From a virus: a stretch of DNA of 37,868 nt. The notes under the pieces were generated by a model. The model saw only the letters and a program-made list of their open reading frames with translations. It ran no database searches and was not told where the DNA came from. This document shows positions 5,478 to 29,456 of this stretch, piece after piece (the stretch's first letter is position 1; each line of letters starts with the position of its first letter). The stretch lies in the IMG/VR virus record IMGVR_UViG_3300025736_006128, positions 1-37,868 of that record. The stretch is one strand, 5' to 3'. Both the position numbers and the translations under genes were made by a program.

Positions 5478-5608
5478 AATATTAACATTAGTCAGCTAAT
5501 GTTAATATTATTAAATCCCCCTTTGAAGGGGGTGGTTTTGCCACCGGCAAAAGTGGGGGATGTTTCTTGCCAAGTCACCCGGGAACGCCGATCTCCGCAT
5601 CGGCGCAT
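5478..5608. repeat. Composite E-A-B repeat
   Basis: E (5478-5509) is a perfect palindrome with 14-bp arms around TCAG (AATATTAACATTAG and its complement). A is at 5514-5564 with a TTTTGCC/GGCAAAA hairpin. B is at 5578-5608. Pyrimidine-rich tracts follow. Confidence 0.85.
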
Positions 5609-5726
5609 ATCTTTTTCTTTTTCTCGGCAGCTCTTATCTTTTTCTTTTTAATCTAATCCACCCAACCGTGGAGTTTTGCGCTCTTTGCAAAAACTCCGAG
5701 TTTAATGGCAAGTGTTTTTCTTGCCG

Positions 5727-6128
5727 TTAAACCGCGCACCTCACAAACTTCAACGCCACCACCGAATTCACCGGATAACCACCCATCCGCAAGTTCTCCT
5801 CAATCTCATCCGTTAGCAACTGCCCCGTAAAATACGTCCCCGGTGTTTCGGCATACCTGTAATACACCGATATTGGGGCCGGATGCCCATAACCATCCAC
5901 CCACCCGGCCAGCGTATCCAGCTTCGCATTCGTCAGATCCGCGTTATGAATGCGGATATTTGCCAGCGCCGTTTCGGTCGCCTCTTTGGGGCTGTAATAC
6001 ATTCCCACCTTACCCGTCTGCTTCACATACGAATCCGAGCCCCGGCTCCAGTTCCAATCCACATACTGAACCTCATTCTCATCAAAATCCAGCGTAGTCG
6101 CCCCGTTCACCACTCGTAAACAAACCAT
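5727..6128 (-). CDS. Probable tail-associated protein, unknown family
   Basis: This encodes 133 residues from an ATG with AAAAGGA 7 nt upstream. It is soluble, with probable beta strands (MVCLRVVNGATTLDF; APISVYYRYAETPGTYFTG) and a segment NIRIHNADLTNAKLDTLAGW. Placed between the beta-helix spike gene and the dockerin genes, it is probably a distal tail or spike accessory protein. I recognise no family. Confidence 0.6.
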   Translation of the reverse strand: MVCLRVVNGATTLDFDENEVQYVDWNWSRGSDSYVKQTGKVGMYYSPKEATETALANIRIHNADLTNAKLDTLAGWVDGYGHPAPISVYYRYAETPGTYFTGQLLTDEIEENLRMGGYPVNSVVALKFVRCAV

Positions 6129-6628
6129 ATCAAATCCTTTTTAAAATTCCCCCTTTGAAGGGGGTGCCCCTGCCAACGGCAGAGGTGGGGGATGTTCTTT
6201 ATCTCTTTTCAAACACCTCAACCCGTCAGAAATGGGGGACGTTTTTCTTTTCCCCAATAATTCGTGTCATGTCGAGCGTAGTCGAGACACGACACCGCTT
6301 TGCAACCTTACACCCCGACAATCGCTCCGCGTAAGGTTCGACCGCACTTCCGAAACGCCCCCATGCTGGGATAACTACCCCTCCAGGCAGCAAACAGTCC
6401 CTTCATGCAATCTGACGTTGCAATCTGTGGGGCTTGTACCGTCCGTCCGGCTCTATCTCTTTTCCAGCACCTCGCCCCCTCCCATTCCACCTTTGAAGGG
6501 GGTGGCTCCACCCTTGGTGGAGACGGGGGATGTTCTTTATCTCTTTTCTGACTCCGTACGGGCAGATTCCATATCTGCCCCCTTCTTTTCTTTAAAAACT
6601 CCTTAAGGCAAGGGCTCCTCTTGCCGGC
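6129..6628. other. Repeat-filled intergenic region
   Basis: A copies are at 6145-6197 and 6484-6534, and a C copy (TGTCGAGCGTAGTCGAGA) at 6266-6293. Between them are degenerate hairpins such as GGGCAGAT/ATCTGCCC near 6559-6582. Open frames on either strand here are low-complexity translations of the repeats; I see no gene. Confidence 0.7.
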
Positions 6629-7825
6629 CTATTCAGACGCCCACGCCCCATTCTCATTCTCCAGCCACTGCCCGAAAACCCCCGTCAAATGCACCCGACT
6701 CCGCGACACCAGCGTATACCCCACCCGTGTAATCGGAATCTTCGTCAACGTCCGCGTCGGACTCCCCACGTTTACCGTCATCAAATCCCCGAACTCCGCC
6801 ATCAAATCCTGCATTTCCGCTTCCAGACTGATTTCAAAAATTCCAAACGCAAAAATCGAATACAGCCGGTTCTGCAGCCGCGCCACCGTCATCGAATCAC
6901 TCAGGCTCCACTCCAGCGCCCCCACCGACCACGCACTCGGCCGCGCGAACAAAACCCCGTCAGCCGTAAAGGCAAAATTTCCGTCAGCGCTTAGATTTGT
7001 TCCGGCCTGATATAATGGCGAATCCGCATCCTTAATATTAAAATCCTCCGAACCACTGGCCACACTCACAAAACAATTCGCCGCCGTTTTACTGTCCTGG
7101 CTATTTGACCCCGGCGCAGTCGTATCCCCGCCGACATTGTAATCGCTATCCGCATGAAACGTCCCCGCGAACGCCGCCGTGCTTTGCCCCACACACACAT
7201 TGTTTTTCGCGTAAACCGTTCCCGAATATTGCCGAATACCGGTCGCCCCGTCAAACACCGTGTTATTGTAAACATACGCCGCCACCACGGAAGCAATATT
7301 AATCCCGTAACCCGTATCGACGTAAACAATATTATTCACCACCGTCACCGTTATCGCGGAATCATCCAGCTTAATCCCCAACCCGTCAGCCGAACCTTCC
7401 CCGTAAATAATGCACGAATCAATCCGGATGTCCGGGTCAGCGATTGCCCCCACGCCATACACATTTATCGCCTGGCAGGCCCCGGTCGCACTGCCCGAGT
7501 TGAACTGCAGCCCCCGGATCCGGATATGCGCTTCCTGAACCGTAAATATATTCGACAGCGCGCCGGTATAGTCAATCGTAAACCCCGAACCCAGCGAGGC
7601 GTCATGCCATTCTGTTTCCATCGCGTGAATATCGACATAATACGCCGGATTAGTGGCAAACGAATTAATCACCACCCCGCTGTCCATCACCGCATCGTCA
7701 TAACATTCCAGTTCGTGATACACACCGGCCACCTGCAGGTTTTTCCCTTCCGTCGCTTCCCACACCCGGAAATCAGAATAATCCCGCCCCACCGCCGTTC
7801 CAATCGTTACCGTTTCAACCGCCAT
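6629..7825 (-). CDS. Right-handed beta-helix tail spike-like protein
   Basis: This encodes 398 residues from an ATG preceded by a GGGGGTGGTGG stretch. Residues about 90-230 show the short strand-turn repeats of parallel beta-helix proteins (IRIRGLQFNSGSATG; IRIDSCIIYGEGSADG; TVVNNIVYVDTGYGINI; AYVYNNTVFDGATGI; TVYAKNNVCVG), with N-rich turns. The last 90 residues differ and end in VHLTGVFGQWLENENGAWASE. Phage beta-helix proteins bind or degrade host surface polysaccharide. The start overlaps the upstream gene by 11 nt. No catalytic residues can be named, so enzyme activity is open. Confidence 0.75.
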   Translation of the reverse strand: MAVETVTIGTAVGRDYSDFRVWEATEGKNLQVAGVYHELECYDDAVMDSGVVINSFATNPAYYVDIHAMETEWHDASLGSGFTIDYTGALSNIFTVQEAHIRIRGLQFNSGSATGACQAINVYGVGAIADPDIRIDSCIIYGEGSADGLGIKLDDSAITVTVVNNIVYVDTGYGINIASVVAAYVYNNTVFDGATGIRQYSGTVYAKNNVCVGQSTAAFAGTFHADSDYNVGGDTTAPGSNSQDSKTAANCFVSVASGSEDFNIKDADSPLYQAGTNLSADGNFAFTADGVLFARPSAWSVGALEWSLSDSMTVARLQNRLYSIFAFGIFEISLEAEMQDLMAEFGDLMTVNVGSPTRTLTKIPITRVGYTLVSRSRVHLTGVFGQWLENENGAWASE

Positions 7826-8639
7826 ATGCCACCACCCCCTTACCCGGATTCACAAAAAACCGATTCGGTAGCGGTATTTGCGGCCGTTCCGCCACCTCCG
7901 CCAACGTCATTTCCGGATCCAAACCGAACCGCAACAAATAATTCCCCGCCGACCGCCGCCCCTGCTTCACCAAATCCACGATCCGCGTTTCCAGCCCCAG
8001 CGTCTTACCATGCTTCTTCCAATCAATCGTCCAGCGCCTCTCAAACCCCTTACCATCCACCCGCTTCAGACATTTCATATCTCTGATTCCCCCTTTGAAG
8101 GGGGTGCCTCCACGCAGTGGAGGTGGGGGATGTTCTTCCGTCTCCCCAAATTCCCCGTCAGGTACCCACACCGTCAACACCCGCGACAACTCCCGCCGCC
8201 CCCAGGGCCACGTTTCCATCACACTCTTCCCGTCAGAAAACCCATGCGTCCCCAACAGCTCCAGCGGCATCGATTCCTTCAGCTCCCCCTCAAGCACATC
8301 CCGCGCCACACTCCGCAGCTTCATCTTTGGCACATCGTGATAACTCACCCCGCGTGGCGCTTTGGCCGTCATGGCCCGTGCCGTAACTCCACACGCCGCA
8401 ATCTTTTTCCGGAACACAGCCCCGTTAGGTTGCCGCACCGTCATCGTCCGGTCGAAATATTTATCATACAACCGTGGCGAAAAAGGCATCATCATCCCCG
8501 ACGTCCCGCGCAACAGCATGTCCGCCCAGGTATAAAAGATATCATCCTCATCCTTCACCGCCAGAATATCCCCCACCTGACGCGCATTTTCCGGACTCTT
8601 ACTATACCCCGGATTTATCACCACCGCAAATTCCGCCAT
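7815..8639 (-). CDS. Tail-region protein interrupted in frame by a type A repeat
   Basis: This encodes 274 residues from an ATG with GGAGG upstream. The N-terminus (VVINPGYSKSPENARQVGDI) and a central MKLRSVARDVLEGELKESMP stretch are soluble; no family is recognised. Residues about 168-184 (HPPPPLRGGTPFKGGIR) are exactly the translation of a type A element (8086-8136, 51 nt = 17 codons), which keeps the frame open. Without it the flanking sequence reads GETEE...DMKCLKR smoothly. This is the behaviour known for Rickettsia palindromic elements. The gene lies between the methyltransferase and the spike, so a baseplate or tail-tip role is likely. Confidence 0.65.
   Translation of the reverse strand: MAEFAVVINPGYSKSPENARQVGDILAVKDEDDIFYTWADMLLRGTSGMMMPFSPRLYDKYFDRTMTVRQPNGAVFRKKIAACGVTARAMTAKAPRGVSYHDVPKMKLRSVARDVLEGELKESMPLELLGTHGFSDGKSVMETWPWGRRELSRVLTVWVPDGEFGETEEHPPPPLRGGTPFKGGIRDMKCLKRVDGKGFERRWTIDWKKHGKTLGLETRIVDLVKQGRRSAGNYLLRFGLDPEMTLAEVAERPQIPLPNRFFVNPGKGVVAYGG
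8086..8136. repeat. Type A repeat inside a coding frame
   Basis: It has the full CCCCCTTTGAAGGGGG core, a CCTCCAC/GTGGAGG hairpin and a closing GGGGGAT. It lies wholly inside the 274-codon gene without stop or frame change. Confidence 0.9.
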
Positions 8640-8648
8640 TATCTATTC

Positions 8649-8859
8649 CCCTCCTGGGAATGCCGGAGGCGAACGCTCTCTGTTCGCCCCGTATCGGCAG
8701 TTTTGTCTTTTCTTTATCTTTCCCCATTCCCCCTTTGAAGGGGGTGGTTTTGCCACCGGCAAAAGCAGGGGATGTCGTCATCATTATTCATCTAATGTTA
8801 CCGCCCCAAATTCCCCCTTTAAAGGGGGTGGCTCCACGCAGTGGAGACGGGGGATGTTC
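8649..8859. repeat. Hybrid B/G repeat and two A repeats
   Basis: B arms (GGGAATGCCG ... GTATCGGCAG, 8649-8701) are split by a G hairpin (GCGAACGC ... GTTCGC). A copies follow at 8726-8776 and 8809-8859, and an E half-site (TCTAATGTTA) lies between them at about 8787-8796. The gap between the methyltransferase and tail genes (8640-8905) holds nothing else. Confidence 0.8.
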
Positions 8860-8905
8860 AATCTTTGTCTCTTATCTTTATTCTCTATCTCAGCAACTCT
8901 TATCT

Positions 8906-10330
8906 TTATTCTCTATCTCCGCAACCCTTATCTTCCTCTTCAAACCCCAACAACCCCAACTGCACCCCATCCCGCAGCACCGCCTGCACCCGCCGCTTTG
9001 CAATCACACAATTTCGAATATCGTTATCAATCCCAATAATCGGAATACCCAACTCAGCCGCACCGACAAGCGTGGACCCCGTACCAATAAACGGATCGCA
9101 TATCAAATTAACCTCCGGCATAGTCGCCAACCTCAATAAGTATTTCATAAGTTCCACAGGCTTAACAGTTGGATGCTGATACAACTCTAAATCTTTTGGA
9201 TGGGTTTCGTTTTCCTGATGTTCAGCCCGTTTAGATACTGGATAAGCGTCCTTGCACACAGGACAGTAAAACCAGCGTTCACGTTGGGCGGCCTTTGCAC
9301 AATAAAAGAATCGAGCGGCGGAACCGGTGCCGGAATAACCCTTTTGCCTTACGTCGCTATTTTTAGAGCCCCAAATAGAACCCTTGTTTGTTGTCATGCC
9401 ATTGGATGGCCCCGTCACCGGAAACTCACCCACCACACACGCAGACCCATCGTGGCAAATATTTGCAGGGTATCGGCCTTTTGTGTTGCTGGTACCATTT
9501 CCATTGTGTTTTTCCCAGTAACTGGCATTCGCATTATAGATTGTCGGCTTTTCACCCTTATACGCATGTGTTTCTTTTATTTCATCAGTTTCCACCCGCC
9601 CGCCATCAATCCACAACCCACTCACGCCATGCTCCAGCGCATTCGCAAAACCAGTCCCGTCAAATGGTTTTTGAGCGTAGCAAATAGGTTCCATCGCAGG
9701 TTTCAGGTTTTGCTTGCCGTATTTCCAGCCGTCCCATGTTTTCGCGTCGTCCGGTGCGGGGGCTGTAATTTTACACTCTTTCGGCATCCCGACAACTCTC
9801 ATATTTAAGCTACTACCACCGGGCTTATTCGCCGCTGGTTGTTTATGACTCCCTAAAACCTCGCGTTCCGCCCCAGCCTTCTTGTCAATTTGCTTGCTTA
9901 TATCTGTACTTTTTGGAAATCCCGATCCGAACATCCAGCTCAAAAAGTTATTTATTTCCCACCCGGAATCCTCAATAGCGCAGACCATCCGGTGATACGT
10001 CCGGCAACCGCCAAACGCGAATAAGTTTGCACCGGGTAGGCATGAGTTTAGTATTGGAGTCCAGAAGTCTATGCCTGGGACCGACTTATCCCAGCCCTTA
10101 CCCATAAAACCAATCCCATATGGCGGATCACTCACAATCGCCGTCAGCCCACCCAAATGCGGCATAACCGTCCTGTTATCCCCATAATAAATCGTAATAT
10201 TACCGTCCCTGTAAAATGGAACCACGTCCCTGTATCCCTTCTCTTTATCCGTTCCCTGCCCCAAATTCCCCCTTTGAAGGGGGTGGCTTCGCCTCCGGCG
10301 AAGATGGGGGATGTTCTTTTCGGAGTGCAT
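8906..10330 (-). CDS. Beta-class DNA N4-cytosine/N6-adenine methyltransferase
   Basis: The longest frame is 474 residues. The catalytic motif DPPYG is at 68-72 and the AdoMet-binding motif DPFIGTGS at 412-419. Catalytic-first order defines the beta class. The middle holds the target-recognition region, including a FYCPVCKDAYPV zinc-finger-like segment followed by His residues. Known enzymes methylate DNA to protect it from host restriction or for regulation. No partner endonuclease is visible, so it is an orphan phage methyltransferase. The first 30 or so residues are translations of D and A repeats. A GTG at 10225 (residue 36), 10 nt after GAAGGG and just before the real domain, is the more likely start. 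Confidence 0.9.
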   Translation of the reverse strand: MHSEKNIPHLRRRRSHPLQRGNLGQGTDKEKGYRDVVPFYRDGNITIYYGDNRTVMPHLGGLTAIVSDPPYGIGFMGKGWDKSVPGIDFWTPILNSCLPGANLFAFGGCRTYHRMVCAIEDSGWEINNFLSWMFGSGFPKSTDISKQIDKKAGAEREVLGSHKQPAANKPGGSSLNMRVVGMPKECKITAPAPDDAKTWDGWKYGKQNLKPAMEPICYAQKPFDGTGFANALEHGVSGLWIDGGRVETDEIKETHAYKGEKPTIYNANASYWEKHNGNGTSNTKGRYPANICHDGSACVVGEFPVTGPSNGMTTNKGSIWGSKNSDVRQKGYSGTGSAARFFYCAKAAQRERWFYCPVCKDAYPVSKRAEHQENETHPKDLELYQHPTVKPVELMKYLLRLATMPEVNLICDPFIGTGSTLVGAAELGIPIIGIDNDIRNCVIAKRRVQAVLRDGVQLGLLGFEEEDKGCGDRE

Positions 10331-10347
10331 TGCCTTTATGCAATGCG
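10264..10347. repeat. A and D repeats overlapping the methyltransferase start
   Basis: A is at 10264-10316 with a CTTCGCC/GGCGAAG hairpin; D is at 10321-10347, identical in sequence to 2451-2477. The 10330 ATG lies inside D. Confidence 0.85.
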
Positions 10348-10408
10348 CCGGCGCCCCATGCCAAACCGAGGGTGGGGTTTTCGCGGTCCCCCGTCAAAGA
10401 ATTTTATA

Positions 10409-10783
10409 TCACTTTTTTATCAATAATTTCTTATAAAACAAGTTAAACGAACTCAGAAACAACGCGGAAAAAAGTATCGTCCAGAACACCATTCCTAAAA
10501 AATACATAACCGCCGGGCCGTTACCCAGAATTTTCCAGTCAAAACTCACATATGCGTGTACCGCCGCGAACACAAAATAGGCGACTATCGAACCAACATG
10601 GAAAGCATCAGCCCAATGCCACCCATCATTTTTCCACTTTCCGGCATCACCGTCCATACCCATTTTCCGGTCCCAAAAAGACCCGGTTAACCGCATCTTC
10701 GTCGCGTGGTCGTTTACCGTATCCCGCACCGCCTTTGCGAATCCACTCAAAATTCCAAAAAACACAATAAAAAGTTCAAACAT
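10409..10783 (-). CDS. Three-span membrane protein
   Basis: This encodes 124 residues from an ATG with GGAGG 6 nt upstream. Hydrophobic segments lie at about 2-17, 66-82 and 89-115. Between the first two is a polar loop with basic, D and W residues (RLTGSFWDRKMGMDGDAGKW). It sits between the distal tail genes and the methyltransferase. Small multi-span membrane proteins of this type occur in phage genomes, but I cannot assign a function. Confidence 0.65.
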   Translation of the reverse strand: MFELFIVFFGILSGFAKAVRDTVNDHATKMRLTGSFWDRKMGMDGDAGKWKNDGWHWADAFHVGSIVAYFVFAAVHAYVSFDWKILGNGPAVMYFLGMVFWTILFSALFLSSFNLFYKKLLIKK

Positions 10784-10826
10784 AATTGCCTCCGTATTTA
10801 TTTTTTTGCCCGCTCTTTGGTTGACG

Positions 10827-10932
10827 ACTCCCCCTTTGAAGGGGGTGCGTTTTCGCCAGCGAAAACGTGGGGGATGTTTCTTTTATCTTTTTGATCCCCG
10901 CGCCCTGGGAATGCCGATCTCCGTATCGGCGC
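10827..10932. repeat. A and B repeat pair
   Basis: A is at 10827-10879 with a GTTTTCGC/GCGAAAAC hairpin; B is at about 10904-10932. They fill the gap between the membrane gene and the distal tail gene. Confidence 0.85.
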
Positions 10933-10942
10933 TTTCCTCTTG

Positions 10943-12518
10943 CTACCCCCTCAAAAACGGCACATAATAATCCACCATACTTTCCGAACCCAACAACTCC
11001 GCCGGACTCGCCTGCAAATCATTCGACTGATCGTGACCCTTATTTTCCGCGTCCGTACAATCCCAGGCATAATGCACCATAAACGCATTAAAAGGCTGCA
11101 ACCGCCGCACCGTCGGATTCCCAATCACATCCGGCGTCACCAATTCAGCAGCCACATACTCCGCCCATTCCGGATGCAAAACCATCAGCCGGAACTTGCC
11201 CGAAATCCCCTGCGCCATAAAAGCAATCCCATGTGGCAGCAGCGTCATAATCGCCTCCAGCACCGTAATCTGCGCCGTCCCCGTGGCCATCTGCTTCGCG
11301 AAGCTCAGCGTCAGCGCGTCGTTTTTCGTCAACGCCTGGCACACATTAAACGTCCCGCCAACCGTACCCGGCGGCTTTTCCGCTTCGTCCACTACACTGC
11401 TGGTCAAGTTCACATCAATCTGGCTGTCCGGAATCCCCGCGTAATCGTGCAGCAGTTCATAAATAATCTGCGGCAGCGTTTTCGCCACAAAATTCACCGC
11501 CACATGAAACGCCAACGTATCCCCCGCCGTCGGACTCGTCCAGTCCGCGCTGGCAATCTTGACATGGCTATCCGTCGCATCCGTCACATCATAAAAATCA
11601 CTGGCCGTACTCCCTTGAATATCCGGAATATTCGGCCCCGTCACCGTAAACGTAGTGCTGCTGTCCATGCGAATACCATATTCCCCCGGAAACGCCCCCG
11701 CATACACCGTAATTCCCGTCAAACTCGTACTGGCCGCATCATCCCAAACCAGCGCCGTTTCCATCTGCCCCTGAAAATTCGCCATCTTCGTCGGCGTGGG
11801 ACTGGTGCTGATAATCCGTAACGGCGCACTCAGCAGCAGGGCATGCATATTGTCCAGCCGCAACGTAGCCTTACCGCTCCCCAGCTCAAACGCCTCCCGC
11901 GCCACCCCCCGATAAACTTCCACATAATTAGCAGCATCCGCATTCAGCCGCAACCGCACGCTCACCTCCTGCCCGGCCACCGGCAAACTACTCACCACAC
12001 TGCCGGCCGCATAGCCATCCGTTAGGTTTGGACTAAAATTAACCGTACTGCCCACAATACTGGAAATCGTCACCTTTTCACTATTTGTCCCGTCGCTGAG
12101 CACAATCACTTCACTCGCCTGAAAATCCAGCAGCCCGTCTTCCAGCGTCAGCGCCCCCGCCGTTGCAATCACAGCACTGGCCAGAATCCGCTGCACCTCG
12201 CGGAACTGCCCCCCGGCCCGCCCGCCAAACGCGTCAAAGCCCTCATTCGGATTACTAAACGTAATCGTCAGCGGCCGCAAAACCATTGAATCATTCGCCG
12301 TTCGGATTACTAAACGTAATCGTCAGCGGCCGCAAAACCATTGAATCATTCGCCGTCGGTGAAATAGCCGAGCCATTTTCAATAAACCCAATCGTTTCAA
12401 TCCCGTTTTCATCACCCAGCAAAATCGCCTCACCATCCGGGTCCAGCACCACCTCAACCATAAAGTACGACGCCGGAAAAAGCGTTGCCGCCCAGGGACT
12501 ATCAGCTCGTATACCCAT
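10943..12518 (-). CDS. Distal tail/baseplate protein, frame broken by a 55-bp tandem duplication
   Basis: Two frames belong to one gene: MGIRADSPWAATLF from the ATG at 12518, and the main frame ending at 10943. A 55-bp exact duplication at 12246-12355 shifts the frame; removing one copy gives 506 continuous residues (TANDSMVLRPLTITFSNPNE). The protein is large, beta-rich and Gly/Thr-rich with no transmembrane segment. A later part (ITVLEAIMTLLPHGIAFMA) and the NAFMVHYAWDCTDAENKG stretch resemble tail hub or baseplate proteins only by position. Its start follows the previous gene's TAG directly. The gene is probably intact in the real genome. Confidence 0.7.
12246..12355. repeat. Exact 55-bp tandem duplication
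   Basis: Positions 12246-12300 and 12301-12355 are identical. A length of 55 is not a multiple of 3, so the tail gene is frameshifted. A probable assembly artefact. Confidence 0.9.
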
Positions 12519-13059
12519 CTATTTCGGCCCCACAAAATTTAAAGTCGTAACCGTTTTCACGTCCTGCCCGTCTATATTTCGGCCCCACAAAATTTAAAGT
12601 CGTAACCGTTTTCACGTCCTGCCCATCTATGATATACCGCACCCGCACATCCGGCGTTAACCAGCAGTCCACCGAATCCCAGCTTCCGCCGTCATTCTGA
12701 TACCCATTGTAATACACGCGGCAATAACGGGATTGCGAAGTTATTGGCAACAACAACAAAATCTTTGTAATTGTATCATCGTAAATACTCCCGGTAGCCG
12801 CCAAATCACTCGCCCGGGTCGGAAACCGCCGCGCCACCACCAGCGGCACACTGATTTCAATCGGCACCGACGTTCCCAGCGCACTTTCCTTCACCGGATC
12901 CCAAATCACAGGCAGATCCCCTGCCGCCTGCATTGACGCCAGCCGTCGTTGTGGCCGTTTCCGCACCCGCCCGGAAATCTCATCACTAAAGAAAAATGAC
13001 CGATATATCACCGACCCCGAACTATTAATCAAAAAAACCGCCACATCCGCTTTTTCCAT
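12519..13059 (-). CDS. Distal tail protein after the tape measure, 3' end broken by a 55-bp duplication
   Basis: The start is the ATG at 13059 with AAGGA upstream. Residues 1-25 (EKADVAVFLINSSGSVIYRS) begin a soluble protein. A duplication at 12521-12630 sends the frame into an artificial tail ending at 12502. With one copy removed the protein is 161 residues ending in TTLNFVGPK, followed at once by TAG-ATG of the next gene. It is the first gene downstream of the tape measure, the usual place of a distal tail protein. No sequence family is recognised. Confidence 0.65.
12521..12630. repeat. 55-bp tandem duplication, one mismatch
   Basis: Copies 12521-12575 and 12576-12630 differ at one base (GCCCG versus GCCCA). 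One-copy removal restores both the end of the upstream gene and the TAG-ATG junction. Confidence 0.9.
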
Positions 13060-13586
13060 GTCCCGCCATTCCTTCTGTTATTCCCCCTTTGAAGGGGGTG
13101 GGGTTTCGCAGCAGCGAAACCTCGGGGGATGTTTCTATTTATTTTTTGCTCTCACCATCTCGCGATTCATCTCAATTATAACCGGCAATGCGCCCGGGAT
13201 TTTAACCCGGCAGCCAAAGTTACCAGAAAACTTAACCTGGAACCTAAAAAGACCTCGGCCTCGGGTTCCTCACGTATAGCCGATTTTACGGCGTCCCGAA
13301 ATATTGCGAAGCCTGGACGTTCGCACCGTCCGTGACACATTGCCATTTTTTAATTCCCTGTCAGTTGTGGGCGTTTTGCTTCGCGAACGTCCTTTGTTCG
13401 CGCAAACTCCGTTGCGACCGCTCTTTGGTCGCACCATTACCCAACTAATGTTGATATCTGAAATCCCCCTTTGAAGGGGGTGCCTCTGCATCAGCAGAGG
13501 TGGGGGACGTCCAACATCACGTCCCGCCCCATGGACGTTTTGCGCTCCTTGCAAAACTCCTCAAGGCCTTCGTTCTATGAAGGCCC
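13060..13586. other. Repeat-filled gap downstream of the tape measure gene
   Basis: A copies are at 13080-13132 and 13461-13510, an E half-site (AACTAATGTTGATAT) directly before the second A at about 13443-13457, and G-like hairpins (GCGAACG ... GTTCGC) near 13382-13403. The open frame at 13270-13554 runs through these repeats and is not a gene. Confidence 0.7.
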
Positions 13587-17961: not shown

Positions 17962-18110
17962 TATTCCCCCTTTGAAGGGGGCGGGGTTTCGCTTGCGAAA
18001 CCTCGGGGGATGTTCTCCCCGTTCACCTCTCACCATTTCTGAACTAATGTTGATATCTTGAAATCCCCCTTTGAAGGGGGTGGCTCCACACAGTGGAGAC
18101 GGAGGATGTT
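17962..18110. repeat. Two A repeats with an E half-site
   Basis: A copies are at 17962-18014 (GGTTTCGC/GCGAAACC hairpin) and 18060-18110. The E half-site AACTAATGTTGATAT lies at 18044-18058, directly before the second A. Confidence 0.85.
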
Positions 18111-18492: not shown

Positions 18493-18684
18493 TCCCCGGG
18501 AACGTCGTTCTCCCGAACGACGGCTCTTATCTTTTTCTCTTATCTTTTCTCTTCCAGTGCCTCAACTTGGTCACCTTATCTATAAGGCGACCAAAAACAA
18601 TAGCGCAGACTGAAGGACAACCCTTCCATTCTAAACCTGAAAACTGCCGCCGGCCGTGTCATGTCGAGCGTAGTCGAGACACGA
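18493..18684. repeat. B variant and C repeat
   Basis: B variant at 18493-18523 has its hairpin changed to GTCGTT/AACGAC. C at 18658-18684 carries TGTCGAGCGTAGTCGAGA. The rest of the gap to 18708 is pyrimidine-rich and holds no gene. Confidence 0.75.
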
Positions 18685-18708
18685 TACACCAGCCACACCA
18701 CCACCCTC

Positions 18709-19496: not shown

Positions 19497-19509
19497 AGCA
19501 CTCTCCTTG

Positions 19510-19764: not shown

Positions 19765-19825
19765 ACCGCACTCTCCTTTATTTCTCTATTAAGGGCGCGG
19801 CCCATCAGAACCGCGCCCCCATCAA

Positions 19826-20620: not shown

Positions 20621-20640
20621 CCTGTCCTCCTGTTATTCCA

Positions 20641-22136: not shown

Positions 22137-22584
22137 TGTCCGGAGCATCCCGTAAATTTAAATTTGAATCGTCCACACCGTCAGTTTCATAATCCGCACC
22201 ACCCGTCACCCCGCCATATGCCGCGAACGTAATCGCCCCTGCCTGCAGCAGCTTCTCATACGCCTCGTTTCGATATGCCTGCACCTGATGAATCCGCTCG
22301 TCCGCCTTTACCCGCGCCGACTCGAATGGCCCCACCGTAAAATCCTCCACCGGTGGGTTCCCCACATACGCCGCAGCCGAAAAGAGAATTTCCGCGATAT
22401 CCACCAGCGTTTGCTTATAGGCCACCAAATCTGCGTACGTCACCGAACCGTCCGCCAGAATAGCAGCAACCTCCGCCTCAGCTGCCGGAATATACACCTT
22501 ACTATTCAGCGTGGCGTCCGTAACCTCATTTTCATCCATCCGCAGCTTGGCCCGTACATCAGCCGGTGTAATCCGATAGCTCAT
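22117..22584 (-). CDS. Head-tail connector/adaptor protein
   Basis: This encodes 155 residues from an ATG with AAGGA upstream. It is mostly helical, starting SYRITPADVRAKLRMDENEV, then a helix bundle (YIPAAEAEVAAILADG; LVDIAEILFSAAAYVGN). That matches the general make-up of gp6/gp15-type connectors that bind under the portal. It is the first of a run of overlapping neck genes. Confidence 0.75.
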   Translation of the reverse strand: MSYRITPADVRAKLRMDENEVTDATLNSKVYIPAAEAEVAAILADGSVTYADLVAYKQTLVDIAEILFSAAAYVGNPPVEDFTVGPFESARVKADERIHQVQAYRNEAYEKLLQAGAITFAAYGGVTGGADYETDGVDDSNLNLRDAPDNVSLFS

Positions 22585-22640
22585 TCAGTTTTCCTTGTTT
22601 TCGCCTCGTAGAGACGCGTTGCACGCGTCTTCCCGCAACC

Positions 22641-22769
22641 ATCAACTTTAGGCAACTAATGTTGATATCTTGAAATTCCCCTTTGAAGGGGGTGGTTTCG
22701 CCCCCGGCGAAAGCAGGGGATGTCTAACAGCAATTCCCCTGGGAACGCCGATCTCCGTATCGGCAGCTC
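22641..22769. repeat. Composite E-A-B repeat
   Basis: E at 22641-22669 (CAACTTTAG ... CTAATGTTG), A at 22675-22723 with a TTTCGCC/GGCGAAA hairpin, B at 22738-22769, then TCTATCTCTTATCTTTT. The gap (22585-22845) also has short GACGCGT inverted copies near 22610-22630 and 22798-22835. Confidence 0.85.
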
Positions 22770-22845
22770 TATCTCTTATCTTTTCCACACCATAGAGACA
22801 CGCCGCAACGTATCTAAATTACAACGCGTCTCTACCTGAGATTAT

Positions 22846-23955
22846 TTAATAATCGCCAAGATTCAGCCAGAACAATGTTGCGGTACCAGATACCCACATG
22901 GTATCATTCGCGCTGCAATCGTCGGCTGCAATGGCAAAATTTAAAAAGGCGTCTTTTGCCCCGGTATGCCCATCAAAAGAGGCCATCGTGGCGTTATACC
23001 CGTTTATTGTTTTCAATCCCCCAGCAAAATCACCTTCAACCTTGTTTACCAGGTCTTGCTCGGTTGTTGATAGTTCCTCGTTGTCGGTGGCTGTCGTTAC
23101 CGTTCCGATCCCAACGTCCTCGGTAGCGTCATCGGCAATTCCGCCATAAGCAGCGGCAAGAGAAAGATTCAAAACAGAACCGAAGTACTGTAAAAACCCT
23201 TCTGGAAAATCATGGATTTTTACCGAACCATGCGCCCCGGCTGCACCGGCATCAGTAATTACGACTGCCAGCGAATCAAAGGTTATTGTCGTTTTATTCA
23301 TAGCATCAACGACGTTTGCGGATGACATTCCTATTCCGGTAACACCACCAGCGGCAACATATCCCAGCGTCGCACCGCCGTCATCAGCGGCATCCAAACG
23401 CCCGGAATAGGTAACAACACCCGTGCCCTTTGGCGTAATATTAATATCAATATTCGAATCAGTCCCATCAGCTTCCAAAGTAGTCCCGGTCAGCGTAACC
23501 GCAGCCGCGGCAACGTTGGTATCGAATGTCGTACCGTTTACGGTGGTGCTGTTTACGGTCGTACCATTTACGGTGGTGCTTGTCAAGGTCGTAATGGTCG
23601 TGGCGGCAATCGTCCCGCCTTCAACATTGTCACCGCTTATCTGGTTATCAGCCAGCGTCAGCGTTCCGGCAGATACGTCCAGCGTTTTTCCGGCGCCAAC
23701 CGTAATGTCAGATCCGGCAATAGTTACATAACTCACTGTTCCGCTGTCAATATCAACACTTGTCAGCGTCGGTGCCGTCAGCGTCTTCCGCGCCATCGTT
23801 TCCGTCACATACTTCAAACAATGCCGCACTTCAGCCATACCGTACTTACCGAACGTTTTCGGATAACTCGTCCGCGTACTCGGGTAAATTGCCGCGAAAG
23901 CCGCCACCGTAAAAATCAGCAGAATCCCGACAATACCCCATTTTTTTAATTTCAT
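22846..23955 (-). CDS. Signal-peptide protein with Thr/Asn repeats in the head module
   Basis: This encodes 369 residues. The N-terminus (LKKWGIVGILLIFTVAAFAA) is a typical signal peptide or membrane anchor. Residues about 50-150 are low-complexity strands with repeated NGTT/NSTT (around 128-143), and the C-terminal 100 residues form a distinct domain ending DCSANDTMWVSGTATLFWLN. The ATG overlaps the upstream stop by 4 nt (ATGA), so it is translationally coupled to head genes. An exported protein in this position is odd. It may be a decoration or fibre protein with an unusual hydrophobic start. Confidence 0.7.
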   Translation of the reverse strand: MKLKKWGIVGILLIFTVAAFAAIYPSTRTSYPKTFGKYGMAEVRHCLKYVTETMARKTLTAPTLTSVDIDSGTVSYVTIAGSDITVGAGKTLDVSAGTLTLADNQISGDNVEGGTIAATTITTLTSTTVNGTTVNSTTVNGTTFDTNVAAAAVTLTGTTLEADGTDSNIDINITPKGTGVVTYSGRLDAADDGGATLGYVAAGGVTGIGMSSANVVDAMNKTTITFDSLAVVITDAGAAGAHGSVKIHDFPEGFLQYFGSVLNLSLAAAYGGIADDATEDVGIGTVTTATDNEELSTTEQDLVNKVEGDFAGGLKTINGYNATMASFDGHTGAKDAFLNFAIAADDCSANDTMWVSGTATLFWLNLGDY

Positions 23956-24290
23956 GATTTGCGTCCCTTCGCTGTTGCTTTTGCGCTGCGTTGGTGCGTG
24001 GTCCGTGGTATCACCTTTGCCGGCTCAGCCGCTGGTTCTGCCTTCAGCTCCAGCTCCGCCGGTATTGGTGCCTGAACGGGATCAATAGTCGGCTCAGCCA
24101 CATCCAGCACCCGATAACGCCCGTCAACCAGTTCCGCCTCATGCCGCCAGAACCGATTATTCGGAACGTCTTTCAGGATCACCGTGCCGCCATTTTTTTT
24201 GATAGCCGTCCAACTGACCCGGATTTCATAATTCGGACCAATCTTATGAACCGCACCCCTCGCAATCGCCGTGAATGTTTTTTCGTGCAT
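23952..24290 (-). CDS. Small head-module protein with Pro/Ala-rich tail
   Basis: This encodes 112 residues from the ATG at 24290, which has AAAGG about 8 nt upstream; an ATG at 24299 lacks one. The first 70 residues are a small beta domain (FTAIARGAVHKIGPNYEIRV; GTVILKDVPNNRFW). The rest is a P/A/E-rich linker ending in a basic stretch (HQRSAKATAKGRKS). It lies just after the capsid gene. Function unknown. Confidence 0.65.
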   Translation of the reverse strand: MHEKTFTAIARGAVHKIGPNYEIRVSWTAIKKNGGTVILKDVPNNRFWRHEAELVDGRYRVLDVAEPTIDPVQAPIPAELELKAEPAAEPAKVIPRTTHQRSAKATAKGRKS

Positions 24291-24358
24291 TAAAATCACC
24301 TTTCATTCTCAAAGAAATGCACCGCCATATGCGGTGCATTTCATCATTACGTGCGATA

Positions 24359-25477
24359 TTACGGTGCTACGTCCAACGATACCAGGGCGTTGGCATCAGT
24401 CACATCAACATCCATCCGGATACTGATAACCGTGACCACTTTTTGCGCCGTGATAACTTTTTCAGTTTCTTCCATCACCGCGAAATCATTGCTGTACATC
24501 GTCAAAGCATGTCTCGGATCCATAGCTAAAACAAAATTAGCCGGAACCGGGCCGTCGTCCCACTGATTCAAATTCGGAATCGGCACGTTGATTTCGCCCC
24601 GCTGAGCTTTACCCTGGGTCAGCTGTACGGTCTGACCCCACCACTTCACAGCGGCAGCGGTTCTGGCTGCGGCCTCAGTAATTTTGTAAGGCGATCCTGG
24701 CGTTGCGGAAAATTTGATAATATCTTCAATATCAATGGAGCCGGTACTGGAAACATCAACCACGTGGGCGGCCGGAACATTGTTATAAGCCTGCTGCAAA
24801 ACCCAGTCAGTCATATCAATACCCAACTGAGAAAAACGCCGCTCAATAAACTGCCGGAACATACTCACTGGCATCGAATCGATATCGTTGTAACTGTATG
24901 TCAATTCCCGACCAAAATCCTTTAGCGTACCCTGTTCAGAATCACGAATCAACCGGGCTTCCGGGAATTTATGTTCAGTGCCGCCGGTTTGATAAGCCGA
25001 ACCGCGAGCAAATGACCGGTTTTGTTTGGTGGAAGAATCTTTGATTTTCACATACCAGGTACCCGGAATCGTGACCCGATTCGGGCAAAACACACTCGCC
25101 AAACCCTCTTTCAGGGCGGCGGCGAAAACCATGTCCAGAATAACACCCGGCAATAACGCCATGGTACTGGCATCCTGTTTAAATGCATCCATCGTGCTGC
25201 AGCTTGAACCATTCAGAGTAATACCATGTGCGGCAACAGCCATTTCCAATGCCGTTAACGGTACAACCTGACCGGATGCCGCGTAAGCGGCCTTCATCGC
25301 CTGAATCTGGAAATTATCCCGTCCGTAATATGGCGTTGCAGCCATCACTTTTTCTTTATCAACGAAATGCTTTTCCAAAAAGGCATTGAAGCCCCCCTGG
25401 GTAGCAGCATCGTCATACATGCCGGCACTGAGTTTGATCTTCTTCAGCTCTGCCGGAATCTTTACAGTATCAATCAT
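24359..25477 (-). CDS. Major capsid protein
   Basis: This encodes 372 residues from the ATG at 25477 (AAAGGA at good spacing; the ATG at 25483 is too close). It follows the protease-scaffold and decoration genes in the standard order. The protein is soluble with an N-terminal helical arm (AELKKIKLSAGMYDDAATQ), a central FARGSAYQTGGTEHKFPEAR stretch and a C-terminal half (PNLNQWDDGPVPANFVLAMD; MYSNDFAVMEETEKVI) of the kind seen in HK97-fold capsid proteins. A terminal ISIRMDVDVTDANALVSLD strand ends the domain. Confidence 0.8.
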   Translation of the reverse strand: MIDTVKIPAELKKIKLSAGMYDDAATQGGFNAFLEKHFVDKEKVMAATPYYGRDNFQIQAMKAAYAASGQVVPLTALEMAVAAHGITLNGSSCSTMDAFKQDASTMALLPGVILDMVFAAALKEGLASVFCPNRVTIPGTWYVKIKDSSTKQNRSFARGSAYQTGGTEHKFPEARLIRDSEQGTLKDFGRELTYSYNDIDSMPVSMFRQFIERRFSQLGIDMTDWVLQQAYNNVPAAHVVDVSSTGSIDIEDIIKFSATPGSPYKITEAAARTAAAVKWWGQTVQLTQGKAQRGEINVPIPNLNQWDDGPVPANFVLAMDPRHALTMYSNDFAVMEETEKVITAQKVVTVISIRMDVDVTDANALVSLDVAP

Positions 25478-25547
25478 TGTCATTTCCTTTGGACAAATCC
25501 ATTTGTTTCAGTGAATTGGAAATAACTCTCGTGTAAAATCCGGCCGC

Positions 25548-26015
25548 TTATAAGCGTGCCTGACAATAGTTGCTGTCGCTGTCTTTAGCCTGAACCATAC
25601 CAATCCCACCAGTATCCGCGCCCTTAACATTCGTCCAGGTAGCGCCATCGACCAGCAGTTCCTGCCCCAGAGCGGCGCCGGAAGTCCCAATCGGGAATTC
25701 ATCCGTACCGTTGCCACACATATGAACCGTGCCTTCTTTGTCAGCGTATGCGTACACCCGACAGGTCAATTCATAATCATTGTCGTCGTCTTCAATGATT
25801 TCCACGATCCGGGCATGAAACACATCACCGTCAGCACACGCAGAAACCTCACGGTTATTAGAAATCGACATTTTAACCAGCCGACCCTTAGCCAGCTCCT
25901 TCGTAGCCAGCGCGCCAATGGCAGTTGCCAATGAGCTGTCCGGCCAAAAAACCTCTTCCGGGAAATTGCCGAGTACGCCACCTTCACCGGGTATGTTCAT
26001 TCCATAAGTTGGCAT
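25548..26015 (-). CDS. Capsid decoration-like protein
   Basis: This encodes 155 residues from the ATG at 26015 with AAGGAGG upstream; the longer frame to 26039 is not supported. It is a small beta-rich protein with ELAKGRLVKMSISNNREVSA and CRVYAYADKEGTVHMCGNGT. Its place between protease-scaffold and capsid genes is that of head decoration proteins (lambda gpD-like), which stabilise the shell. Confidence 0.7.
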   Translation of the reverse strand: MPTYGMNIPGEGGVLGNFPEEVFWPDSSLATAIGALATKELAKGRLVKMSISNNREVSACADGDVFHARIVEIIEDDDNDYELTCRVYAYADKEGTVHMCGNGTDEFPIGTSGAALGQELLVDGATWTNVKGADTGGIGMVQAKDSDSNYCQARL

Positions 26016-26062
26016 TAAAAACCTCCTTGTTATTGCCAAATAAAATCAGTTATTAACTTTTT

Positions 26063-26137
26063 TAAGGCGAACCCTCTTTGTTCGCCCATCCCCCTTTGAA
26101 GGGGGTGGGGTTTCGCTTGCGAAACCTCGGGGGATGT
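26063..26137. repeat. G hairpin and A repeat
   Basis: GGCGAAC ... GTTCGCC at 26065-26085 is followed at once by A at 26088-26137 (GGTTTCGC/GCGAAACC hairpin). Confidence 0.8.
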
Positions 26138-26148
26138 TCTTCCCTTTA

Positions 26149-26634
26149 TTACCGAATCCCCGCCGAACTCGCCGAAACCTCAATCATTTCCGGTTCGCCG
26201 TTGTCACCATCAGCCGTCTGCTGTGCAGTCGGATGCTGGTCATTATACAGCTTCTCATACCGCTGCAACGTTTTCTTAATCTGGTCCAACGGTACCGATT
26301 GCAGCTGTTCTTTTTCGCCGTCAACTTCATCGTCACCAATCATCCCAACCCGATTACCCATAGTCGTAGTCTGTTCAATTAAGTCGGTGCGATAAGCTTT
26401 CGCGTCATCGTTGGCCTGTTGCATCACGGCCTGTTCCACGTTCTCGCCAAAAACCGCATCCATCGCCTGAACCCGTACTTTTGCCGCGTCAAGGTCGGTT
26501 TGCAACTGCTGCATGGCTTCCAATTTACCCTCATAAGCCGTCTGCAACTCAGTCAAAACCCCCTGTACCGCCTTTTCATCCGTGCCGTCAACTTCTTTAT
26601 CAAAGCCCAGCACCGCGCTCAAAATTTTAATCAT
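26149..26634 (-). CDS. Nested scaffold protein from an internal start
   Basis: The ATG at 26634 is residue 345 of the protease-scaffold frame. It is preceded by GGAGG (26645-26649), 10 nt away. The 161-residue product (MIKILSAVLGFDKEVDGTDE onward) is almost entirely helical with coiled-coil segments (LTELQTAYEGKLEAMQQLQ). Phages such as lambda make a separate scaffold (Nu3) from an internal start in the protease gene in the same way. Confidence 0.7.
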   Translation of the reverse strand: MIKILSAVLGFDKEVDGTDEKAVQGVLTELQTAYEGKLEAMQQLQTDLDAAKVRVQAMDAVFGENVEQAVMQQANDDAKAYRTDLIEQTTTMGNRVGMIGDDEVDGEKEQLQSVPLDQIKKTLQRYEKLYNDQHPTAQQTADGDNGEPEMIEVSASSAGIR

Positions 26635-27666
26635 TTCCTGTTTTCCTCCGTTGGCACCATCGCCGTCCGCCGCCTGCGTAGAACTTCCATCCGGGATAAC
26701 CACCGGGTCCGCTGGCGCACCGGTCGAACCCTGTGCTCCGTTTATATTTTTTGGCGCCGGGTTATCCACCGACCCCCCGTCATTGCCTGCATCATGTTTA
26801 TTCACCACACCCGCGCCATATTGCCGCCCCAAAAAGCAGTGACTGGCTTCCATCGCCTGTGCCGGCCAATCCTCCGAACTTGTGAATTCCCACCATTTCA
26901 GCGTCTTGCCGTCTTCACTGTAAACCGCGTCATACCCAGCGCAATTGAACCCGATACTAATATCCGTACCCAATCCGGCCTGAATCTGCCGCACCCGCGC
27001 CTGCTCTTCCGCCGTCACATTCAGCATATAATACCGAATCACCAGCCAACCCAAAGCCCCGTCACGCCCCTCAATATCCGCCAACAGTGCCGCAATCTTT
27101 GCCGGTTTATAAGGCAGCCCGTTCAGCGTTTCCCGGTATTCCTCCGCGCTCATCGTATCCACCCGCGCCGCATACACCCGACCATCGCCCAGACTATCCC
27201 AATCGTGGTTATTCAGTTTCTGCTTGCCCACCATCGTCTTCGCCAACTGCTTCAAAAATGCCAATGGCACCCGCTCGCCTTGCCGATTCACAAACGAATT
27301 CGCCAGGTAATCTTCAAACACCACCACCTGATCCTGCTGAATCGATTCCGGGTGCTTCATTTGCGCCTGAACCTTTTTCCACTCAGCCGAAGTCAGCTTC
27401 ACCGCCTGCTTGCTTTCCGGCACCGAAAACTGCAAATCAACCCGTGCGCCCGGCACAAACGCCGCCTGCCGACAATCCGACGAACCCAGCCAGGCCAAAC
27501 ACGCCACGGTCGAGTCAAACGTCTGATAACCCGCGTTCCGTTCATCATTCGCCCGGAAGGTCACCACCCCGTTCTTAGCCGCCACCGCCGGCGTCGTAAA
27601 ATCCGGCCCGTCATATGCGAACTTCCAAAATCGCCGGCTATGTTTTAATTCCTTAAATTCCGCCAT
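26149..27666 (-). CDS. Prohead protease-scaffold fusion
   Basis: This encodes 505 residues. Residues about 115-250 form a prohead protease-like domain: FEDYLANSFVNRQGERVP, NNHDWDSLGDGRVYAARV with candidate catalytic H154, and LGTDISIGF with candidate S237. A Gly/Pro/Asn-rich linker (about 295-340) leads to a coiled-coil scaffold region. The protease frees and matures the procapsid while the scaffold shapes it, then is cleaved. The start ATG has AAGGA upstream. It lies just before the decoration and capsid genes. Confidence 0.8.
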   Translation of the reverse strand: MAEFKELKHSRRFWKFAYDGPDFTTPAVAAKNGVVTFRANDERNAGYQTFDSTVACLAWLGSSDCRQAAFVPGARVDLQFSVPESKQAVKLTSAEWKKVQAQMKHPESIQQDQVVVFEDYLANSFVNRQGERVPLAFLKQLAKTMVGKQKLNNHDWDSLGDGRVYAARVDTMSAEEYRETLNGLPYKPAKIAALLADIEGRDGALGWLVIRYYMLNVTAEEQARVRQIQAGLGTDISIGFNCAGYDAVYSEDGKTLKWWEFTSSEDWPAQAMEASHCFLGRQYGAGVVNKHDAGNDGGSVDNPAPKNINGAQGSTGAPADPVVIPDGSSTQAADGDGANGGKQEMIKILSAVLGFDKEVDGTDEKAVQGVLTELQTAYEGKLEAMQQLQTDLDAAKVRVQAMDAVFGENVEQAVMQQANDDAKAYRTDLIEQTTTMGNRVGMIGDDEVDGEKEQLQSVPLDQIKKTLQRYEKLYNDQHPTAQQTADGDNGEPEMIEVSASSAGIR

Positions 27667-27882
27667 GCCTGAATTCCTTTTTTATATGTCATGTTGAGCG
27701 TAGTCGAAATATGCCCCACCTCGCAGCTCTTATCTTTTTTTCTGTTCCCACATCGGCCCTTCTTGGAATGCCGGAGGCGAACGCTCTTTGTTCGCACCGT
27801 ATCGGCAGCTATTCTTTGTCTTGCCAGTCGGCACCTATCTTTTATCTTTTCCCATCTCGGCCGCTTTAATCTTTTTCTTAAA

Positions 27883-28007
27883 AAACAAAAAAAGCCCGAC
27901 AATCACTTTCGATTGCCGAGCTTCACTGGTCTGATTAGCCCGCTCTATTTTTCCCCCAAATCCCCCTTTGAAGGGGGTGGCTCCACGCAGTGGAGACGGG
28001 GGATGTT
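27883..28007. repeat. 125-bp direct repeat, left copy (terminator plus A element)
   Basis: Identical to 36397-36521. It begins with an A run and terminator hairpin and ends with a full A element (27959-28007). Confidence 0.95.
27886..27923 (-). terminator. Rho-independent terminator (left copy)
   Basis: AAGCCCGACAATC pairs with GATTGCCGAGCTT (two G-U pairs) over a short loop. Read leftward a T7 run follows. It would stop transcription from the right before the protease gene, so the head operon needs a promoter downstream of it or antitermination. Confidence 0.85.
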
Positions 28008-28088
28008 TCTTACCAATTTCCCCGGTAACTTAGCACTTATCTGTTTTCTACCCCTGGTCCCGACACGAATGTCGCTACCCCAACCCAT

Positions 28089-28316
28089 TTATTCTTCTAC
28101 GATTGGGTATTTCTTTGCCCTCTTCTTTACCTGTATTTCAGGAACCACGCCCTCAGCATTCATTTGCCCGCTAGGTGCCCGTTTCGTCGCCATCCCCACC
28201 GAAACCACCGGCGGCGTAGTCATTTCCGCATGCAGACACTTCGCGCACAATTCCGGCGCCTTATCCGCCACCGCAAAAGTAATCTGCGCGCCACATTTAG
28301 TACAAGCAGTAATCAT
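28089..28316 (-). CDS. Small zinc-ribbon protein
   Basis: This encodes 75 residues. CTKC near the N-terminus and CAKC about 20 residues later form a four-cysteine zinc ribbon. The C-terminal half is disordered and ends in a basic VKKRAKKYPIVEE. AAGGGG lies about 11 nt before the ATG. Small phage zinc ribbons can be DNA, RNA or protein adaptors. Its leftward transcription would end at the terminator directly downstream. Confidence 0.65.
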   Translation of the reverse strand: MITACTKCGAQITFAVADKAPELCAKCLHAEMTTPPVVSVGMATKRAPSGQMNAEGVVPEIQVKKRAKKYPIVEE

Positions 28317-28404
28317 AATCTATTAACCCCTTGTTTTTATTGTACTATAATCAACTTACCCCTCCATTGTGCAAAAAAAATGCCAGCCCGTCGCAGATAA
28401 TTGC

Positions 28405-28529
28405 CACATTAGCGTACTAATGTTAATATTTTAAATTCCCCCTTTGAAGGGGGTGCCTCTGCCGCCGGCAGAGGTGGGGGATGTTTCTTGCCAACTCCCC
28501 TGGGAATGCCGATCTCCGAATCGGCAGCT
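28405..28529. repeat. Composite E-A-B repeat
   Basis: E at 28405-28430 (CATTAG CGTA CTAATG), A at 28434-28485 with a CCTCTGCC/GGCAGAGG hairpin, B at 28499-28529, then TTATCTTTTTCTC. Confidence 0.85.
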
Positions 28530-28768
28530 TATCTTTTTCTCTTTTTATCTTCCCAATCCCGTAGAGCCGCATTGCACGCATCTCCACCTTACCCCCACCC
28601 AACCCCGCGCCCTACCCCCGCCCCCCCGGAAACACTGTAAAGTTCGCCAAAGCCGAACCTTCCAAAACGTATTCCCAAAACAGTCCGAAAAATCCGGACA
28701 GTTCCCCCACACCCTAACAACTCTTACGATATACTTTATATTTTATGACGATATATTTTACTTTTATA

Positions 28769-28797
28769 TTGACTTTTACAAAGATTTAGGGTAAATA
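28769..28797 (+). promoter_or_regulatory. Sigma70-type promoter for the plus-strand island
   Basis: TTGACT at 28769-28774 and TAAATA at 28792-28797 with a 17-nt spacer. The expected start near 28804 leaves a leader of about 40 nt to the ATG at 28843. Confidence 0.65.
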
Positions 28798-28842
28798 AAT
28801 TCGAGGTACAACATAACCACCAAAACGGGAAGGGGAAATACG

Positions 28843-29274
28843 ATGGGACGTAAATCAGTCATATTTTTATCTATAATTCTAATTTCACTGATGTGCATCT
28901 CCGTGGCCAACGCCACACCCGACTACTACGGCTTCCAGCCAATCAACGCGGACTACCTCGCCAATGGCTGGAATATGGTCCACCTCACGGGGTCCATGGC
29001 CCTAAATATTATTCTACGGGTTCGCTACGATTTAACCCCACTTGAAGCAGGCATAATCACTGTTGTTGCAAACTTCACGTGGGAGTTTTTTGACACGGCC
29101 TACGCGAATTTGCGAAAAGGCCCGTCGGCACTAGACCAGATACTCGATAAAAGGGGGCCGGATTGGCGAGATCCGACGATGGGTGCCATCGGCGTTATAA
29201 CAAGCAACGTCGCCTGCGGTATCCGCTTTCGCAATAAAACACCAATGGCAACCATAACAATTAAACTAAGATAA
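28843..29274 (+). CDS. Exported/membrane protein, weakly YfiM-like
   Basis: This encodes 143 residues from an ATG preceded by GGAAGGGGAA. Residues 1-25 (RKSVIFLSIILISLMCISVA then NA) are a signal peptide. The rest has MVHLTGSMALNIILR, a hydrophobic helix (about 68-80) with WEFFDTAYAN, and DWRDPTMGAIGV. The order H...(K/W)E..D...D....G resembles small periplasmic proteins of the YfiM/DUF2279 kind, a weak match from memory. It has its own promoter and is the first gene of the plus-strand island, so it may be a lysogen-expressed gene. Confidence 0.65.
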   Translation: MGRKSVIFLSIILISLMCISVANATPDYYGFQPINADYLANGWNMVHLTGSMALNIILRVRYDLTPLEAGIITVVANFTWEFFDTAYANLRKGPSALDQILDKRGPDWRDPTMGAIGVITSNVACGIRFRNKTPMATITIKLR

Positions 29275-29328
29275 TAAGTGTCTCCAGGCACTCAAAAAAT
29301 AGCCAAAGACTGCAAACTGGCAGAAACC

Positions 29329-29456
29329 ATCAACATTAGCTTAGAAATGTTAATATGAAAATTCCCCCTTTGAAGGGGGTGGTTTTGCCGCAGGCAAAAG
29401 CAGGGGATGTCTAATCACCCCATTCCCCCGGGAATGCCGATCTCCGTATCGGCGGC
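29329..29456. repeat. Composite E-A-B repeat
   Basis: E at 29329-29356 (CAACATTAG ... AAATGTTAATAT), A at 29360-29411 with a TTTTGCC/GGCAAAA hairpin, B at 29427-29456, then TTTGTCTCTTTCTT and the leader of the next gene. Confidence 0.85.

Follow-up and report, generated by a model that had tools for sequence, protein, structure and literature searches.

The DNA analysed here, referred to as the window, is the whole of IMG/VR entry IMGVR_UViG_3300025736_006128, a phage record of 37868 bases. Tailed-phage genes were recognized in it (tape measure, major head, neck, portal, lysozyme-like, DNA methylase and an intein-bearing protein), and in a simple coding-score gene map 78% of the window lies in genes, nearly all of them on the - strand. 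A + strand gene island at about 28843-32466, its genes taken from the ORF list, shows differing codon use and includes an HNH_3 endonuclease; an intein-like gene at 32483-34174 gave matches to intein splicing and HNH/DUF559, and two tandem duplications lie inside the portal gene or at its end (34713-34872, 80 nt, 96%; 35892-36087, 98 nt, 89%). Searches with the major head protein, the ORF 26149-27666 product and the intein-bearing protein found no relative in viral contigs, while among named phages the head protein had no match and the tape-measure protein matched in part only. No host was found by the pattern of repeat B (below) in 68, 199 and 394 genomes or by the major head protein in 68 genomes, and the scanned proteins of the window included no recognized transposase.

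Three short repeats, termed A, B and E, recur in the window. Profiles built from the window copies themselves and searched over the whole window gave 19 A, 12 B (10 plain, and two whose loop contains another hairpin) and 9 E. Two hairpins make up A, the first (CCCCCTTTGAAGGGGG) constant and the second exchangeable, and its GGGGGATGT end is again constant; B is a hairpin, and E is nearly palindromic. All 19 A and all 12 B are on the + strand. At four sites the three were found, as the preliminary description had claimed, in the fixed order of E palindrome, A, B hairpin and T/C-rich tract, all on the + strand: 5478-5622 (E 5478-5509, A 5517-5563, B 5578-5606, tract to about 5622), 22641-22782 (E 22641-22668, A 22677-22723, B 22737-22765, tract), 28404-28543 (E 28404-28430, A 28438-28484, B 28498-28526, tract) and 29329-29471 (E 29329-29355, A 29364-29410, B 29426-29454, tract), the last being flanked by two + strand ORFs. 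A fifth, interrupted composite lies at 2343-2531 (+), with a weak E at 2343-2366 (E-value 0.086), A at 2377-2423, an extra hairpin GGAGTGCATTGCCTTTATGCAATGCG and B at 2487-2516.

Partial versions, also claimed earlier, in fact prevail: E is missing immediately ahead of 12 of the 19 A, and 14 of the 19 lack a B within 30 nt. E-A without B occurs at 13432-13510 and at 18031-18109, the latter with a solitary A (17966-18013) 17 nt ahead, and A-B without E at 10830-10948. A stands alone at 6149-6195, where it is followed by a TCTTTATCTCTTTTC tract, and at 6487-6533 with the same 3′ tract (14/14 nt); further solitary copies lie at 13083-13132, at 10268-10314 (at the 5′ end of the - strand ORF 8906-10330), at 26090-26137 (adjoining the stop of gene 26149-27666) and at 36476-36520 (the right end of an exact 125-nt duplicate). 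The copy at 8089-8133 is in frame within the open frame of ORF 7815-8639 (- strand), for which no homologue was found that would reveal an empty site. B is alone with its tract at 3143-3187 and with differing arms (CGTCGTTC/GAACGACG) at 18494-18539, and it carries a second hairpin in its loop at 27757-27822; the segment 37328-37615 holds E alone (37328-37355) and B alone (37570-37598). All of these are on the + strand, as are two exceptions to the order: B-A-A at 8653-8857 (B with a second loop hairpin 8653-8714, A 8729-8775, A 8813-8857) and B-E at 31659-31778 (B 31659-31687, E 31747-31770).

Other hairpins accompany these repeats. At 8653-8714 and 27757-27822 a GGCGAACGCTCTCTGTTCGCC-type hairpin replaces the B loop, and members of this hairpin family are also solitary at 13381, 13412 and 26065. 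A further palindromic repeat, GTGTCATGTCGAGCGTAGTCGAGACACGA, is present in three copies (6263-6295, 18655-18687 and 27685-27717); possibly similar repeats occur in Bacteroidetes.

The E-to-A gap is 7-10 nt for seven of the nine E. Between A and B, the four composites have 13-15 nt; the distance widens to 25 nt at 10830 and, with a further hairpin in between, to 63 nt at 2377. The earlier figures were about 4 nt for E-A, a value that varies with the position chosen as the end of E, and 14-16 nt for A-B. Chance was modelled by random placement in the 6943 nt of intergenic space over 5000 rounds, with E-A gaps of up to 15 nt. Seven E-A pairs were seen versus 0.43 expected and four E-A-B units versus 0.02 expected, neither number being reached in any of the 5000 placements, and five A-B pairs versus 1.06 expected (P value=0.001). 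Permutation of the labels only gave 0/20000 for E-A, 0/20000 for E-A-B and 0.0136 for A-B. Order and spacing in the window are thus non-random, though with the two order exceptions. Because E-A is strongly non-random and A-B more weakly so in both tests, the tight core is E-A and B is optional.

Outside the window, the A frame is constant, CCCCCTTTGAAGGGGG-[hairpin]-GGGGGATGT, while the enclosed hairpin varies freely. At least 106 stretches in genome contigs carry it; the records listed include many Candidatus Hydrogenedentota and also Bacteroidetes, Balneolaceae, Chlamydiota, Marinimicrobia and Parcubacteria, mostly as MAGs, and no B or E was found at E-value 0.001 in the bacterial A loci listed. 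A strict A pattern was present in 16 of 68 Hydrogenedentota genomes (244 copies, 122 per strand), the densest having 52 in 5.1 Mb; the window, with 13 strict copies by our own reading of the aligned copies, all on the + strand, is about 34 times denser per base. In a sample of 394 genomes from another phylum, 19 contained A-like frames, which enclose a wide variety of hairpins. In a scan that may omit the window's own record, a 16-base core of A was found in 51 of 2.9 million viral contigs, nearly always once per contig; in many of the 51 the core lacks the GGGGGATG end, so that these need not be A, and none has B or E. One viral contig (L187, 4041 bases) holds three A-like copies on one strand, with hairpins resembling those of the window, and a Hydrogenedentota MAG contig (L035, 4211-5138) holds about ten A arrayed in tandem, one every 103 nt.

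B-like repeats, often as inverted pairs, were found in 2 of the 68 Hydrogenedentota genomes, in one doubtful case of 199 and, within a single phylum, in 48 of 394; at the loci of 15 of these 48 genomes, one loose partial match to A was the only sign of A nearby. E was not found in the bacterial or viral loci searched, nor was E-A-B found outside the window. A general 'E slot' 5′ of A in bacteria was considered and rejected, with hairpins lying upstream in one genome group (6/10), weakly in another and not elsewhere. A and B are therefore separate families of short palindromic repeats, each present in other bacteria independently of the other. The earlier proposal of a transposed non-autonomous unit holds in so far as the composite is non-random and its main part, A, appears mobile (below), yet E, A and B do not form a single element: A lacks E and B in bacteria, A lies alone in genes, and 48 of 394 genomes have B-like repeats but, as judged from the loci of 15 of the 48, not A beside them.

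The evidence on mobility of A comes from its copies inside genes and its neighbours. Copies in frame inside ORFs were found in bacteria and in one viral contig (L009), whose portal protein has a 24-residue insertion with the A peptide that is missing from two phage homologues. In an O-antigen-ligase-like gene, one A-derived stretch is common to all genomes compared, with an extra A before it in one genome and after it in another. In a PolA-like protein and a histidine kinase, A-derived stretches lie between regions aligning to solved structures, and this evidence is weaker as the alignments end short of the inserts. The PolA stretches are at L058 4037 and L053 7609, in a Parcubacteria MAG and an unclassified MAG, respectively, and L058 has a second A-like peptide near its stretch. 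Among neighbouring A within 300 nt in bacterial loci (the tandem-array locus L035 being left out), 41 of 51 are inverted, 30 with the GGGGGATGT ends outward and 11 opposite and tightly spaced; the window, unlike bacteria, has all A on one strand and no inverted pair. No empty sites were found for the window copies, nor any close phage relative. From these homologue comparisons, A appears to be mobile by itself.

Possible traces of joint copying were found beside the composites. In the 14 nt 3′ of A, 12 positions agree between 5517 and 28438 and 11 between 28438 and 27962, whereas the linkers of composites 22677 and 29364 agree at fewer than 10 of 14. At 27962-28020 (+), A (27962-28006) is followed by what by eye seems to be a B that has lost its hairpin, with a linker 11/14 nt like that of the composite at 28404. 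We consider it probable that A, B and probably E are tiny non-autonomous REP-like mobile DNA palindromes that were joined as E-A and E-A-B and then copied further. Alternatively, independent insertions at a few permissive or preferred places, for example beside palindromes, could have yielded the order with no copying of units. This is consistent with A and B being separate families elsewhere, with the nesting of hairpins within one another and with the target palindromes for REPs reported in PMC3733652, but it fits poorly with the fixed spacing (E-A 7-10 nt, A-B 13-15 nt) and with the linker similarity among 5517, 28438 and 27962, and we regard it as a lesser possibility.

The structure of A was examined for signs of selection as DNA or RNA. 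In nine window copies of equal length, four pairs in the second helix of A differ at both positions, amounting to 14 cells, and none is altered on one side alone, so the variable internal arms noted in the preliminary description do co-vary. The covariation score and the paired percentage were reached by 0 of 500 shuffles and the number of two-sided pairs by 48 of 500, and further pair types fell below the shuffles. In bacteria, a stem was found in 76 of 78 distinct inner segments of A, with 464 Watson-Crick, 7 G-T and 35 mismatched cells (G-T and mismatch scored alike), and the window stems have 84, 3 and 3, respectively. G-T was thus no commoner in the bacterial copies than a random non-Watson-Crick pair. 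RNA under selection is expected to tolerate G-T pairs. Since the arms co-vary with almost no G-T pairs, the data favour a palindrome that acts at the level of DNA, with a structured RNA being the less likely reading of A. As one-sided states are absent, the second hairpin seems to change as a whole unit.

These results bear on the other earlier proposal, that the composite is transcribed and acts as a structured RNA cassette in processing, stability or regulation. The co-varying arms and the good folding of E-A-B on both strands (z about -2.6 to -4.8) would suit such a role; however, folding is equally good on both strands, G-T pairs are not preferred in the bacterial copies, Rfam 15 gave no match at gathering score, and most copies are antisense to their neighbours while those of the + island are sense. 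The RNA cassette is accordingly disfavoured, and we judge it improbable.

Strand composition was then compared with the orientation of the repeats. The + strand is C-rich, with negative GC skew in all 18 of the 2-kb blocks listed and a skew of -0.28 in those intergenic parts that are free of A and B, and the third positions of + genes keep the sign of the window's skew; on these grounds the window is of a single strand polarity. The repeats follow this polarity and not gene direction, as one A and two B within the + gene island are likewise in + orientation. With one mismatch permitted, 15 copies of the T-rich tract CTYTTATCTTT were counted versus 1.05 expected, all 15 on the + strand. B with such a tract could act as a terminator of + strand or antisense RNA, A-B and E-A-B being terminator clusters: 8 of the 10 plain B were listed as terminator-like on the + strand, and the B at 31659 sits 9 nt past a + strand ORF. 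Yet nearly all genes are on the - strand, so that B would face the wrong way, its T-tract is interrupted and begins late, B bears little resemblance to the strongest of the other terminator-like sites (27924-27891 and 36438-36405), and A and E would be left unexplained. We give little credence to a terminator function.

The 125-nt segments 27883-28007 and 36397-36521 are identical, with one border in the T-tract of a - strand terminator and the other at the final base of GGGGGATGTT, where A ends. A retro-copy, in which a - strand transcript cleaved at the outer border of A and stopped by the terminator was reverse-transcribed and inserted, would explain these two borders but is most improbable, as it is a single event, plain DNA duplication suffices, and no reverse transcriptase was found among the window proteins scanned.

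A mobilising enzyme was sought among Y1 transposases, as the preliminary description had pointed to TnpA-REP. In the A-bearing phylum Hydrogenedentota these are present in 54 of 68 genomes, 15 of them among the 16 A-bearing genomes and 39 among the 52 others (Fisher P value=0.16; the MAGs may be incomplete). At 40 Y1 loci, no A was found within a distance of about 1.5 kb, and one A-bearing genome (G002) gave no Y1 match. A MITE is expected to carry the terminal inverted repeats of a parent transposon and its target-site duplication; the ends of A are only imperfectly inverted (AnTCCCCC / GGGGGATGT) and no target-site duplication was established, parent transposons having been sought among Y1 only. 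With an association of P value=0.16 and 0 of 40 loci, a RAYT gains no support as mobiliser of A, although it may still be one. A tie between the orientation of A and GC skew in viral contigs, seen at first (12/15, P value=0.035), was dropped after a wider scan (8/12 contigs, P value=0.39), in which none of three new contigs agreed with the trend; for single A in bacteria the figure was 53/93 (P value=0.21). As the viral trend failed, strand-specific insertion is carried forward as a hypothesis.

For the favoured reading of mobile DNA palindromes, the following course is proposed. A would insert alone, between genes or in frame within them, as homologue comparison suggests. In this phage, A would have been joined on its left to the palindrome E, and E-A then to B; the joined units may have been copied round the genome, giving the partly related linkers, and further hairpins would have nested in them. 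The second hairpin of A would be exchanged or corrected whole, both arms together. The mobilising enzyme would have to be supplied by the host; the nearest model is an HUH/Y1 enzyme like TnpA-REP, which works on single strands and recognises hairpins, and for which the data here offer no support. The uniform + orientation in a genome of one polarity would fit a strand-specific insertion step. A bolder version, which we find unlikely, treats A as a phylum-crossing frame whose DNA hairpins are exchanged like cassettes, with strand-specific insertion into single-stranded DNA, and which phages amplify, fuse to other palindromes and carry between phyla.

How the smallest bacterial repeats move is a largely open question. 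A presents one frame across phyla, with interchangeable hairpins, in-frame copies in genes and a copy density in the phage far above that in the genomes scanned. The phage and bacterial copies thus form a dense natural data set on movement of hairpin repeats as DNA or RNA and on their spread by phages. In the literature searched, no publication with the core sequence of A was found under five spellings, a search that sequences shown only in figures would escape. The small dispersed repeats (SDR) of cyanobacteria (Elhai, 2008, a study cited in PMC4390886) are reportedly mobile and very small, undergo compensatory changes and nest in one another; they are said to be 21-27 nt long and from one host group, and A, B and E may resemble them.

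In PMC3733652, PMC3116915 and PMC8266576, REP/BIME/REPIN are short, high-copy, mostly intergenic palindromes, with some copies inside genes (DNA-repair genes included), and REP target palindromes and composites of REPs with other stem-loops are described; they also form inverted dimers with 20-100 nt spacers. Neighbouring A are mostly inverted in bacteria, but A in the window has no inverted pairs. The window repeats share with tagged REP/REPIN the build of 20-50 nt, high-copy, mostly intergenic palindromes. However, A has two hairpins and no RAYT nearby, and in the aligned copies it has GGTG before hairpin 2 in place of GTAG/CGTC, while B and E have neither tag. As the GTAG/CGTC tag and a linked RAYT were looked for and not found, A, B and E are not filed as tagged REP. 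A has two adjacent hairpins with complementary changes, as do the mitochondrial double-hairpin or repetitive hairpin-forming elements (PMC2800124, which cites Paquin, 2000), which are also inserted in intergenic and coding DNA and have no known enzyme; these belong to organelles and have other sequences, and are likened by description only. In-frame insertion in protein genes, found for A, is likewise described for Rickettsia palindromic elements (PMC3733652), which differ in sequence and hosts and are again likened by description only. The nearest described kinds are thus REP/BIME/REPIN, Rickettsia palindromic and double-hairpin elements, and A, B and E work like these; what is unusual is the E-A-B composition, the uniform orientation and the density in a phage.
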